A DNA stretch of 50,502 nt, taken from NCBI RefSeq assembly GCF_013388945.1, contig NZ_JACAEH010000031.1, positions 1 through 50,502 on the forward strand. Direction: 5' to 3'. The DNA comes from Nitrososphaera sp. (GTDB lineage: Archaea > Thermoproteota > Nitrososphaeria > Nitrososphaerales > Nitrososphaeraceae). A program made the translations under genes and the position numbers. The notes under the pieces were generated by a model, which saw only the letters and a program-made list of their open reading frames with translations, ran no database searches and had not been told where the DNA came from. Shown in pieces: positions 34,299 through 37,543 of the stretch. How positions within the stretch are numbered: the stretch's first letter is position 1; every line of letters starts with the position of its first letter.

Positions 34299-34709
34299 CT
34301 AGGCGCGCTTCATAAAGCTGGCCTTGTTCTTCTTTACGAGCGGCAGGACCTTTTTCGTGATGATGCCGTGCACCTTGTCGCCGTGCTTGACGTCAAAGGA
34401 CATCAGGACGACGTATGCCAGCCGGCCGTTTTCGTGCGATATCGGTATGGTGGCGCGGACAAGTTTAGCATAGAACGAGCAGGCGTAGCCTATCTTGCCA
34501 AGGAGGTATTCCCAGCGCAGGCGCGTGTACTGGCGCGTGGCGGCGGTTATGGCGTACTGGGCGCGCTCTTCCGGCGTCATGATGGGCTTGAGGCCCTTTC
34601 TCTCGGCAGTCGCCACCAGGTTGCCGTCGCCGTCGGCAATCCCCACAAAGCGTATGGCAGGGTCAAGCGATACGGCTTTGTCGCAAAAGTTCTGGAAAGG
34701 TGTCTTCAT
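34299..34709 (-). CDS. Thaumarchaeal hypothetical protein, paralogue of the 8531 protein
   Basis: A 136-aa soluble protein (MKTPFQNFCDKAVSLDPAIR) with strands (GIADGDGNLVATA; LAYVVLMSFD) and a helical centre (RAQYAITAATRQYTRLRWEY). It resembles the product at 8531-8974 in order and spacing of segments. The frame opens at 34757, but AATATACC near 34735 puts a leaderless start at ATG 34709. The transposon inserted just upstream (target copy 34759-34766), within the divergent promoter region it shared with rpS24e. Confidence 0.7.
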   Translation of the reverse strand: MKTPFQNFCDKAVSLDPAIRFVGIADGDGNLVATAERKGLKPIMTPEERAQYAITAATRQYTRLRWEYLLGKIGYACSFYAKLVRATIPISHENGRLAYVVLMSFDVKHGDKVHGIITKKVLPLVKKNKASFMKRA

Positions 34710-34758
34710 TTGTTCGCTATTGCAAGCGAGCGTGAGGTATATTTGATTTTCCCGCACC

Positions 34759-34766
34759 TTCCAAGC
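34759..34766. repeat. Left 8-bp target duplication of the IS6-like transposon
   Basis: TTCCAAGC occurs directly outside both inverted repeats (here and 37536-37543) in the same orientation. Eight base pairs is the duplication length known for IS6-family elements. Confidence 0.82.
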
Positions 34767-34792
34767 GATACTGTTCGATTAAGGTACATGGC
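34767..34792 (+). repeat. Left terminal inverted repeat of the IS6-like transposon
   Basis: 26 bases starting GATACTGTTCGATTAAGGTA and ending CATGGC. The reverse complement is at 37510-37535 without mismatch. Confidence 0.85.
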
Positions 34793-34807
34793 AAACAGCT
34801 CTCGTAG

Positions 34808-35017
34808 ATGACTTCCCTCCCAAATTCCATAATCTATGGAGCGTTAGGAATGACTCTATTTGCATTGGGTTATGTCGTAGCGCTTGGATTTGGCAGCCAA
34901 TCCATTACAAGAATCGTGCTTGGAATAACCATCGGCGCAGTAATAATGGCAGGAATAGCAGGTTTGGTATTCAGGTTAAGGAAAGCATTAGCGGTCAAGA
35001 ATAATCCAGATGATTGA
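34808..35017 (+). CDS. Transposon passenger: two-helix membrane protein, 69 aa
   Basis: MTSLPNSIIYGALGMTLFAL begins the first helix; the second is ITRIVLGITIGAVIMAGIAG, followed by a basic tail (FRLRKALAVKN). A TAG immediately precedes the ATG, so no longer form is possible. No family recognised. It overlaps the opposite-strand 61-aa gene by 30 bases at the 3' end. Confidence 0.6.
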   Translation: MTSLPNSIIYGALGMTLFALGYVVALGFGSQSITRIVLGITIGAVIMAGIAGLVFRLRKALAVKNNPDD

Positions 35018-35173
35018 TCCAACGATGGCTATTATTCCAACGATAAAGGCAGTCTGCGGCAATCCTAGGTCATTTTCAAGACCGATGAAATCTGCAGTAC
35101 CTGCGGTAATGAAAGAAATGACTACAAGAACGATTCCCGCAAGCAGCAATGCGAATTTCTCGTGCAAAGTCAC
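34988..35173 (-). CDS. Transposon passenger: two-helix membrane protein, 61 aa
   Basis: A short protein with two hydrophobic helices (FALLLAGIVLVVISFITAG; AFIVGIIAIVGSIIWIIL) and a loop FIGLENDLGLPQ. Convergent with the 69-aa gene. Size and topology fit a small DUF-type membrane protein, but no function can be assigned. Confidence 0.55.
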   Translation of the reverse strand: MTLHEKFALLLAGIVLVVISFITAGTADFIGLENDLGLPQTAFIVGIIAIVGSIIWIILDR

Positions 35174-35207
35174 CTCTAGCTATGCCCGGCCTTTTTTAAG
35201 GCTATTT

Positions 35208-35272
35208 GATATAGTTCTGATATAGAACCGATAGAGCTATATAGGGTGATATACATATGATATATGATAGAT
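35208..35272. repeat. 11-bp periodic GATATAG-like repeats upstream of the transposase
   Basis: GATATAG at 35208 and 35219, GATAGAG at 35230, GATATAC at 35248, GATATAT at 35259 and GATAGAT at 35266 recur. Steps are mostly 11 bases (35208/35219/35230 and 35248/35259), one DNA turn. The array covers the region just before and around the transposase start at 35264. It could bind the RHH partner or the transposase, or include the TATA element. Confidence 0.55.
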
Positions 35273-36145
35273 ATGGAGTGTAAGTTTTGTCACTCAAGCC
35301 AAGTAGTCAAGCATGGCAAGCGCTTCGGGCTTCAGCGCTGGCAATGCAAGGACTGCAAACACCACTTTAACGAGACAGACAGCCTTCCAAGAATGAGGAT
35401 AAACACTCACGCAATCGTGACCGCGCTCGACCTTTACTATGGCGGTCTTTCCATGCGCAAGACTGCAGAGCAGCTGGAAAACATCTTTGGCGAATCAGTA
35501 TCGCAATCCACGATACACTATTGGGTCCACCGTTTCGCGACAATTGCAAAAGAGTACGTGGAAACATTGAAGCCCGCGCTTTCAGGCAAGTACCACCACG
35601 ACGAAACAGAAATCAAGGTTGGTGGTGACGGCAAATACTTCTGGGAAACGATAGACGAAGATACCCGCTTTATTGTGGCAAGCCTGTTGAGTGAGGGCAG
35701 AACAAGCGCAGACGCTCGCAAGGTCTTTACGATGGCCCTCAAGAAGCAGAGGCCAACCGCCTTTTTCACCGATGGCAGCTTTGCATACGACGATGCAGTC
35801 AAGGTCTTTTACAGTCGTTACAAGGTTGATCAGGTAGAATGGGTTAGGCGCGTAGGCATAAGGGCAAGAGAAACAAACAACATAGTTGAGCGCTTACACG
35901 GCACTCTGAAAGACCGCACTTATCCGATGCGCGGACTAAAGAACTTTGAAAGCGCGCAGAGCTTGCTTGACGGCTATATCATCAACTACAACTTTTGCAG
36001 AAAGCACCAGTCTATCAAAATGACGCCCGCGCAGGCAGCGGGCTTGGAAATAAAGGGCTGGAAACAGATTATCGAAAAGGCAACCGAGCAAAAGACAAAG
36101 AAAGAGATAGAAGCAAGCGCTATGCAGGTAAAGGTAAAGGCATGA
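35264..36145 (+). CDS. IS6-like DDE transposase with N-terminal zinc ribbon
   Basis: A 293-aa transposase. The zinc ribbon is CKFCHSSQVVKHGK then QCKDCKHHF, followed by an HTH-like segment (GGLSMRKTAEQLENIFG). The catalytic DDE triad is HHDETEIKV, FTDGSFAYDD and NNIVERLHGTLKDR, with the KHQSIKMTPAQAAG C-terminal helix of the family. It mobilises the element by cutting the inverted repeats. The TGA stop overlaps the start of the RHH gene (ATGA), so the two are translationally coupled. Confidence 0.9.
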   Translation: MIDMECKFCHSSQVVKHGKRFGLQRWQCKDCKHHFNETDSLPRMRINTHAIVTALDLYYGGLSMRKTAEQLENIFGESVSQSTIHYWVHRFATIAKEYVETLKPALSGKYHHDETEIKVGGDGKYFWETIDEDTRFIVASLLSEGRTSADARKVFTMALKKQRPTAFFTDGSFAYDDAVKVFYSRYKVDQVEWVRRVGIRARETNNIVERLHGTLKDRTYPMRGLKNFESAQSLLDGYIINYNFCRKHQSIKMTPAQAAGLEIKGWKQIIEKATEQKTKKEIEASAMQVKVKA

Positions 36146-36453
36146 GGCGGGCGCTTGTTTCCCTACCTGATGGGGTCTGGAATGTCATAGACAAGGAGCT
36201 TAGGGGGCAGGTCGGAGATGGTGACTCAGAGGTTATTCGCAACATCGTTATCGCGTACCTGACAGAAAGGGGATATCTGGTAAAGCCAAAAACACACATC
36301 AGCAAGACTGGAACGGTTGATCAAGTGGCTGGTGAACTTGACATCCACGACAACATGATAACCGCGCTTGCAGAAATCCTAGAGGAGCATGGACAGCTTG
36401 ACCAGAACGAATGGGAAAAGCGCGTTCAGAAAAAACTTCATCAGAAAAAGTAA
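36142..36453 (+). CDS. Ribbon-helix-helix-like partner of the transposase, 103 aa
   Basis: The frame extends upstream inside the transposase gene, but ATG 36142 overlaps the transposase stop by four bases. The product starts with a strand and helices (MRRALVSLPDGVWNVIDKEL; SEVIRNIVIAYLTERGYL) typical of MetJ/Arc/CopG RHH proteins. The basic and acidic C-terminal half (QLDQNEWEKRVQKKLHQKK) is unassigned. It probably binds DNA as a regulator or transposition accessory. Confidence 0.7.
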   Translation: MRRALVSLPDGVWNVIDKELRGQVGDGDSEVIRNIVIAYLTERGYLVKPKTHISKTGTVDQVAGELDIHDNMITALAEILEEHGQLDQNEWEKRVQKKLHQKK

Positions 36454-36659
36454 CTCAACAAATTTTGCAGAAGCAATCGCGGGATATACTGGTAATATTA
36501 TCGTGCATAGTATTGATGTTCCTCGGACCCATTGGAATGTTATTTGCTGTTCAAGATGCAGTTTCAGGTAGGAACAGCATAGTGCCATTCATTATGATGG
36601 CAATAGGATTAGCGGCGGGGCTGGCGTTTCTTCGCTTTGTAGAAGCCTTTGTTCCGTAA
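36411..36659 (+). CDS. Transposon passenger: two-helix membrane protein, 82 aa
   Basis: Starts with a polar segment (MGKARSEKTSSEKVTQQILQ), then two helices (ILVILSCIVLMFLGPIGMLF; IVPFIMMAIGLAAGLAFLRF). It overlaps the RHH gene by 43 bases and the convergent 36609 gene by about 50 bases. TTG 36462 is an alternative start. The overlap lowers confidence, but the hydrophobic pattern is not that of a random frame. Confidence 0.5.
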   Translation: MGKARSEKTSSEKVTQQILQKQSRDILVILSCIVLMFLGPIGMLFAVQDAVSGRNSIVPFIMMAIGLAAGLAFLRFVEAFVP

Positions 36660-37430
36660 GTACTTGAGACCCGGTATGTATATGGTAAGGAAACTCGTTG
36701 CAAACGCAAGACTCGCAATACCCAAGGTAGCTTGACTCATAGACAGAGTATTCCTGCCAAGAATGAAACTATTGGTACTTTCGATACCCTCTACATGTAT
36801 GAAAGGCTGACCCATTTTGATTCTATCCTCTTCGTCTGTGGGACCAGCTCCTAGGGCTATATCGAATACGCCACTAGTTGCATAGGTAAGCGTATGATTT
36901 CCGCGATACATGACATCAGTCCAAGTCGCATTATCGGAACTCTTTGTCAAGTCAAAAAAGCAAGATGGAATATGCTCGTACAAGTCTGCACCACGACGGC
37001 AAAAAGTGCCATCCATCCATAAGCGATAGAAATCAGGCAAGGGAATGTTGTTTGCATCATTGTATAGTGCATCATCAGGATCAGGTTTGATGCTGGCAAG
37101 AACAGTTATGCCACTTCCTGCGGCCAGAGTAGTGGAATTGAGATTTATCGTAAGTGACAACATCTGTGTACTATCCACTGGATTGGCTATTTCGTTAAGA
37201 TGGCTTTGATAGAATTGGGGTGCTGTAGGAAGAGGATTTGTCAGGATAGTGTATCCTGTGAGAACGAAGGTGATTACTATAATGAGACCGAGGAGGGCAT
37301 ATGTTACTTCAACAGCCATCATTCCAAGGTCTTTCAGAGTCAGATCTTCAAGACCCAATGCCTTAAGAAAGGCCTGCCTTCGGGAATTTGGCCCATCTAC
37401 CGGCTTACCCTCATTGGTGTATACTACCAA
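36609..37430 (-). CDS. Transposon passenger: membrane protein with extracellular domain, 273 aa
   Basis: One helix near residues 40-64 (YALLGLIIVITFVLTGYTIL), a long beta-rich outer domain (MLSLTINLNSTTLAAGSGIT; FDIALGAGPTDEEDRIKMG) with two cysteines, then a second helix (ASLAFATSFLTIYIPGL) and a basic tail. The start TTG 37430 is uncertain: the frame stays open upstream with protein-like residues (PRYSFPSANDNSYPIKLGAG) to TGA 37500-37502. Four codons before that is ATG 37514 in the terminal repeat (MARS-stop). A nonsense codon in the true N-terminus is possible. Function unknown. Confidence 0.65.
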   Translation of the reverse strand: MVVYTNEGKPVDGPNSRRQAFLKALGLEDLTLKDLGMMAVEVTYALLGLIIVITFVLTGYTILTNPLPTAPQFYQSHLNEIANPVDSTQMLSLTINLNSTTLAAGSGITVLASIKPDPDDALYNDANNIPLPDFYRLWMDGTFCRRGADLYEHIPSCFFDLTKSSDNATWTDVMYRGNHTLTYATSGVFDIALGAGPTDEEDRIKMGQPFIHVEGIESTNSFILGRNTLSMSQATLGIASLAFATSFLTIYIPGLKYLRNKGFYKAKKRQPRR

Positions 37431-37509
37431 CTTGCCAGCTCCAAGCTTTATGGGGTAGCTATTATCATTTGCGCTTGGAAATGAATAACGGGGAAGGTCT
37501 CACGAACGG

Positions 37510-37535
37510 GCCATGTACCTTAATCGAACAGTATC
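37510..37535 (-). repeat. Right terminal inverted repeat of the IS6-like transposon
   Basis: Exact reverse complement of 34767-34792 (26 of 26). The target copy TTCCAAGC follows at 37536-37543. Confidence 0.85.
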
Positions 37536-37543
37536 TTCCAAGC
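37536..37543. repeat. Right 8-bp target duplication of the IS6-like transposon
   Basis: Second copy of TTCCAAGC, immediately right of the inverted repeat. The rpS24e promoter (ACTTAAATGG, about 37547-37556) begins 4 bases later, so the insertion just spares it. Confidence 0.82.

Follow-up and report, generated by a model that had tools for sequence, protein, structure and literature searches.

A complete unit transposon of 2,769 bp, related to the IS6 insertion sequences and carrying four membrane-protein genes besides its transposase and a small ribbon-helix-helix (RHH)-like partner, was found in a stretch of DNA from Nitrososphaera sp. (contig NZ_JACAEH010000031.1, positions 1 to 50,502; hereafter the window, which means all 50,502 nucleotides). 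The source, a member of the Nitrososphaeraceae, is a soil-type ammonia-oxidising archaeon with a genome of 2.0 Mb in 31 contigs. The transposon is apparently intact and was inserted fairly recently, and it is, with good support, a member of a widespread and apparently undescribed archaeal group whose elements as a rule carry cargo. An earlier note on this DNA, made from the letters alone, had proposed exact 26-bp inverted repeats and 8-bp target copies as its limits, and both were borne out, the terminal inverted repeats (TIRs) being complementary at 26 of 26 positions and the target site duplication (TSD) reading TTCCAAGC on both sides:

34759 to 34766, no strand: left target-site copy TTCCAAGC, identical to the right copy and single in the empty sites of relatives
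34767 to 34792, plus strand: left terminal inverted repeat GATACTGTTCGATTAAGGTACATGGC, complementary at 26/26 positions to the right one
37510 to 37535, minus strand: right terminal inverted repeat, 26/26 complementary to the left end
37536 to 37543, no strand: right target-site copy TTCCAAGC, identical to the left copy

The GC content of the element was 44-49%, against 55-59% in its flanks. It lay between a DUF6659-like gene (34299-34757) and rpS24e. In at least nine Nitrososphaera relatives only a short, element-free gap separated these two genes. There, the conserved blocks tatatttgattttc and CAAATACTTAAATGGG were adjacent, and the insertion point in the window fell between these blocks; the unit was therefore inserted. 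The earlier note had asked for this empty site, and would have counted relatives that had these passengers here, but no inverted repeats, as evidence against a transposon; relatives carried neither passengers nor repeats there. The insertion is between two divergent promoters, neither of which was destroyed. An independent insertion sequence of ~0.7 kb, with 8-bp copies ACAGGAGC, was found in the same DUF6659-rpS24e gap of a relative (L111, G014:C1 near 1369300), a few bases from the site used in the window, so that the gap is a possible insertion hotspot. The DUF6659-like gene itself had many paralogues in each Nitrososphaera genome searched, with up to ten in one.

The transposition genes and their predicted control region were arranged as follows:

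35208 to 35273, plus strand: GATATA iteron array with 11-bp phasing around the TATA-like CTATATAG, predicted to be an RHH operator over the transposase promoter
35264 to 36145, plus strand: transposase of 293 aa with an N-terminal C4 zinc ribbon and an IS6-type DDE domain (NCBIfam IS6, Pfam DDE_Tnp_IS240)
36142 to 36453, plus strand: RHH-like partner of 103 aa, its start overlapping the transposase stop (ATGA), found directly after the transposase in type-A elements

The transposase scored 139.4 bits against NCBIfam IS6 (cut-off 125) and matched Pfam DDE_Tnp_IS240 at 1e-19. Its zinc ribbon comprised residues 6-38, and the catalytic domain was intact, with D113, D170 and E209, followed by K216, invariant across 10 relatives. 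The TIR (GATACTGTT) contained CTGTT and lacked a second G at its tip, where many relatives start with GGTTCTGT. Together with the 8-bp TSD and the empty site, the family score and the CTGTT motif uphold the description of an IS6-like transposon with passengers given in the earlier note. A viral or plasmid origin gained no support: viral contigs contained no relatives of the transposase, and the one plasmid match was an IS6 transposase only 26% identical.

An RHH-like gene immediately followed the transposase in every type-A element inspected (11/11 in one set, and further ones too), and the ATGA overlap was common to many type-A relatives. Substitutions in this gene fell on the three codon positions at 0.25/0.15/0.68; a coding pattern was clearest here and in the 61-aa open reading frame (ORF) described below. 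An AlphaFold model of the protein gave a strand region, two helices and a helical tail at low confidence (pLDDT 54), an arrangement compatible with the beta-alpha-alpha fold of RHH proteins, and no Pfam or PDB match was found for it. Upstream of the transposase, GATATA repeats stood on both sides of CTATATAG; the pattern GATATA-N5-GATA occurred four times in 35208-35273, nowhere else in the window and not at all in shuffles. Equal 11-bp phasing was found upstream of the transposases of L130, G192, G039b, G039a, L132, G241 and others, weakening in more distant relatives. The array is thus probably an operator of the RHH-like protein, with autorepression as its likely outcome. A sigma-70-type promoter scan showed no excess, sigma-70 being the wrong model for archaea.

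Transposases similar at E <= 1e-10 were present in 100 of 300 Nitrososphaeria genomes, and two layouts were distinguished. Type A, to which the window transposase belongs, has a zinc ribbon and DDE domain in ~295 aa with the RHH-like gene next to it. Type B is ~370-400 aa long, with an additional cysteine-rich N-terminal part that we read as SWIM-like, and is usually accompanied by a small AbrB-like or RHH-like gene, in many cases a divergent one lying upstream. Three other type-A transposases scored 133-148 bits against NCBIfam IS6, above the cut-off, and the six type-B transposases tested scored below it, at 92-118 bits. In a tree of 101 transposases that of the window fell firmly in the type-A group (support 100/99 for the nearest set), which also includes Bathyarchaeota and Methanolobus vulcani.

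To delimit elements around 123 transposase places, a selected sample made up of the best transposase matches, we required TIRs of at least 11 and an exact TSD of 8 bp, later of 8 or 9 bp, with 369 shuffled-flank controls. The 8-bp test was passed by 46 of the 123 places and by none of the 369 controls; with 8 or 9 bp, 57 places and one control passed. Five of the 57 were dropped, namely L068 and L128 (AT-rich chance ends), L135 and L136 (contigs shared with L071 and L072) and L147 (doubtful), leaving at least 52 unique bounded elements of 1,870 to 6,928 bp, with a median of ~3.25 kb. No bare insertion sequence was among these 52, and none was shorter than 1.87 kb; the 66 places without recognisable ends under the test may include bare or decayed forms. 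The passenger load that the earlier note called unusual is therefore so by comparison with textbook IS6 elements (789-880 bp; PMC7986276) but not within the archaeal group, where 52 of 52 bounded elements reached at least 1.87 kb. Their hosts were Nitrososphaeria, Bathyarchaeota, Methanomethylicus and Methanolobus, and type-A elements with exact 9-bp copies came from Bathyarchaeota-labelled genomes, Methanomethylicus and Methanolobus vulcani.

Many type-B ends were 50-60 bp long with a repeated inner motif. In L058, L057, L080 and other type-B elements the outer motif occurred twice per 50-60-bp TIR, which suggests two transposase binding sites per end. Two different elements stood head to tail in L104:4143-10945, sharing the target copy TGTTTCGA between them. 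The window's own genome held a second element (L065:3594-8671, G000:C9) of 5,078 bp, with a type-B transposase, a proteasome-fold hydrolase and a nested transposase of another family (DDE_Tnp_1).

The four remaining genes of the window element form two convergent, overlapping pairs and encode membrane proteins with predicted transmembrane (TM) segments:

34808 to 35017, plus strand: 69-aa two-TM membrane protein, with a homologue in equal convergent pairing in element G014c (L055)
34988 to 35173, minus strand: 61-aa two-TM membrane protein, its gene overlapping the convergent 69-aa gene, 53% identical to its L055 homologue
36411 to 36659, plus strand: 82-aa two-TM membrane protein, possibly starting further downstream, that resembles a 65-aa ORF at the equal position in G014a
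36609 to 37430, minus strand: 273-aa membrane protein with homologues, consisting of a TM segment, a predicted beta-strand ectodomain (~170 aa) and a second TM segment, overlapping the 82-aa gene convergently

The gene content was as the earlier note had described it, including one protein with an outer domain. The small ORFs were supported as genes by homologues within other elements. In the 61-aa ORF the third codon positions varied most (0.37/0.25/0.69); its family was found in only two elements among the 300 genomes (2/2 in elements) and nowhere else convincingly, and it reappeared with the 69-aa gene as an equal convergent pair in G014c. The 82-aa ORF resembled the 65-aa ORF of G014a better than any of 500 shuffles (0/500 as good); likeness to a small ORF of G014g was weak (23/500 as good) and to one of G008 not significant (344/500 as good). 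Homologues of the 273-aa protein in G014a and G014g were 29-34% identical, and those in G008 and, as a decayed remnant, G007 were more distant. Its ectodomain had a conserved Cys pair, which fits an outside location, and both the AlphaFold model (pLDDT 47) and the beta-strand prediction were of low confidence. In G297a, G183 and G073, two-TM proteins of ~255 aa were alike in layout and 13-16% identical to that of the window, a level at which homology to the 273-aa protein was not established. A six-row alignment of the membrane proteins (A1) was too diverse for searching.

Five credible members of the 273-aa family were found in the 300 genomes (the window, two in G014, one in G008 and one in G007), and all five stood beside IS6-type transposases. 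The carriers of this cargo were the window element, of type A, and three type-B transposases with different neighbours in the tree, on well separated branches; the cargo has therefore moved between elements. In the four intact cases a small two-TM ORF followed the transposase and ran convergently into the ectodomain gene, with sequence similarity between the small ORFs established for the window and G014a only. When checked across the 300 genomes, as the earlier note had advised, the passengers were found elsewhere only beside such transposases. Confined to such elements and yet scattered over unrelated branches of the transposase tree, these membrane genes have been swapped between elements.

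The suggestion in the earlier note of a transporter- or signalling-type module was not supported, as the membrane proteins of the window had no significant match to transporter, signalling, phage or defence families in Pfam, NCBIfam and PHROGs, with PADLOC applied to the 273-aa protein only. That protein matched no PADLOC defence family, the three small proteins matched nothing in Pfam, NCBIfam or PHROGs, and sequence searches of PDB gave nothing usable. Our best guess for the role of this cargo, though less likely than not, is that of an envelope-acting accessory module, which might exclude viruses or mobile elements or serve as an addiction pair. Alternatively, the membrane pairs might neither benefit nor defend the host and instead maintain the element in the population by addiction, in the manner of a toxin-antitoxin module. 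The small size and hydrophobicity of the two-TM proteins, the convergent overlap of their genes and their restriction to mobile elements would suit such a module, but none of the window's membrane proteins matched a toxin family, and the 273-aa protein carries an ectodomain with a conserved Cys pair, which is atypical of known small toxins; we consider this alternative unlikely. The cargo presumably brings some benefit.

Defence-type genes were frequent among the passengers of sister elements. Among 90 passenger proteins, Pfam identified four proteasome-fold hydrolases, N4 and N6 DNA methylases, a ThaI-type restriction enzyme, a type I specificity subunit, two HEPN-AbiV proteins, a Fic protein, an AAA_15/21 ATPase and a ParA-type ATPase. 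PADLOC added NsnB and IetS-like matches, the IetS-like gene lying in unit L060, which has matching TIRs without an exact TSD. Cargo outside the thaumarchaea included a type I-like methylase with a specificity subunit (L142) and GmrSD (L138), and many other passengers were membrane proteins without a match. Methylases alone are insufficient proof of defence. Several cargoes recurred. Four elements (L072, L080, L129 and L146) had a two-gene cargo of a C39-like cysteine protease and a ~320-aa partner, accompanying both type-A and type-B transposases, a candidate module of its own. L061:6093-8347 and L132:2801-4939 shared a 108-aa Cys-rich protein, a GHKL-type ATPase and a small third gene, and proteasome-fold (Ntn hydrolase) cargo was present in four elements of different genera (L065, L087, L165 and L191).

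A further alternative is that the membrane proteins are machinery for transposition or spread and act, for instance, in a conjugation-like process or at a target membrane. Many of the additional genes in these elements do encode membrane proteins, and two-TM small ORFs often lie directly 3' of the transposase, but many bounded elements have soluble cargo and no membrane proteins, and only the transposase and a small gene of DNA-binding type are always present together, which makes a machinery role very unlikely. That an ordinary short IS6-type insertion sequence once took up neighbouring host genes by chance, the load being an accident of the locus, is most improbable, for although textbook IS6 elements are below 0.9 kb with one gene (PMC7986276) and the window passengers are without known domains, all 52 bounded relatives carry extra DNA, equal passenger pairs recur in other elements, and relatives lack these genes at the locus.

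Elements of the IS6 family measure 789-880 bp and carry one gene, with a single passenger-carrying member named, ISDsp3 (Varani 2021, PMC7986276). In the broad ISfinder sense the window element resembles IS6/IS26 in its DDE domain above the NCBIfam IS6 cut-off, the K after the DDE triad, CTGTT near the TIR tip and the 8-bp target copies, which are 9 bp in some relatives. It differs in its length of 2.77 kb, a second regulatory gene, four cargo genes, an N-terminal zinc ribbon and a TIR that begins GA rather than GG. As it has 2,769 bp and six genes where IS6 elements are short with a single transposase gene, we call it IS6-related and not an IS6 element. Harmer and Hall (2019, PMC6807381) would place archaeal and long zinc-finger elements outside the IS6/IS26 family; their strict definition admits no N-terminal zinc domain, and the window transposase has its ribbon at residues 6-38. 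The element is also like insertion sequences with passenger genes (tIS), having IS-type ends and a transposase that enclose non-transposition genes; it shows the ends, TSD, empty site and exchangeable cargo of such transposons, and the cargo may be dispensable. Unlike ISDsp3, an isolated example from bacteria that has one passenger (PMC7986276), the group here is archaeal and multi-gene, with cargo general. The long IS6 clades of clostridia are similar in having a zinc finger (clade h, comparable to type A) or a zinc finger and a further N-terminal extension (clade i, comparable to type B), but these are ~1.2-1.8 kb, occur in Firmicutes and Halanaerobia and were described without an RHH or AbrB partner. 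Thaumarchaeal IS-like transposons share hosts and DDE transposases with our group, whereas they are described with 1-2 genes, and passenger-carrying composite transposons were reported as not detected in archaea (Krupovic 2019, PMC6563490). No description of this archaeal group was found in the open-licence literature.

We favour a fairly recent, complete unit transposon, probably under RHH control, with swapped membrane cargo and belonging to a cargo-rich archaeal group, an explanation that is very likely as a whole and held with still higher confidence for the transposon itself. The IS6-type transposase would act on the 26-bp ends, move the whole 2.77 kb and duplicate 8 bp of target. The RHH-like protein would be made from the transposase transcript via the ATGA overlap, would most likely bind the GATATA iterons that flank the promoter at 11-bp steps and, once bound, would hold transposase expression down. 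The four membrane genes would be cargo exchanged between elements, not transposition machinery, and the element may still be mobile today. Several points weigh against this explanation. Cointegrate formation is the presumed pathway of IS6 elements, and the window element encodes no resolvase, which leaves a clean unit insertion unexplained. The element is present in one copy in its genome, giving no direct sign of current activity. Both the RHH assignment and the putative ectodomain fold come from low-confidence models without a database match, and no defence family matched the membrane proteins (PADLOC on the 273-aa protein only).

The resistance genes that IS6 elements are known to move lie in DNA flanked by a pair of them, and hardly any single unit with cargo of its own is known. 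Annotation pipelines split such a vehicle into an 'IS6 transposase' and 'hypothetical proteins', whereas fixed ends make the boundaries of the cargo readable, so that each element becomes a list of candidate defence modules. Methanolobus vulcani B1d, apparently a cultured organism, is among the carriers. In a bolder form, which we regard as rather unlikely, a large undescribed class of archaeal IS6-type unit transposons would be a main vehicle shuffling compact immune modules among archaea, and the two convergent membrane pairs of the window would be a new envelope-level defence or exclusion system. With members in several archaeal phyla that regularly carry cargo, often defence-type genes such as HEPN and restriction systems, the group would be a vehicle of gene exchange among archaea.

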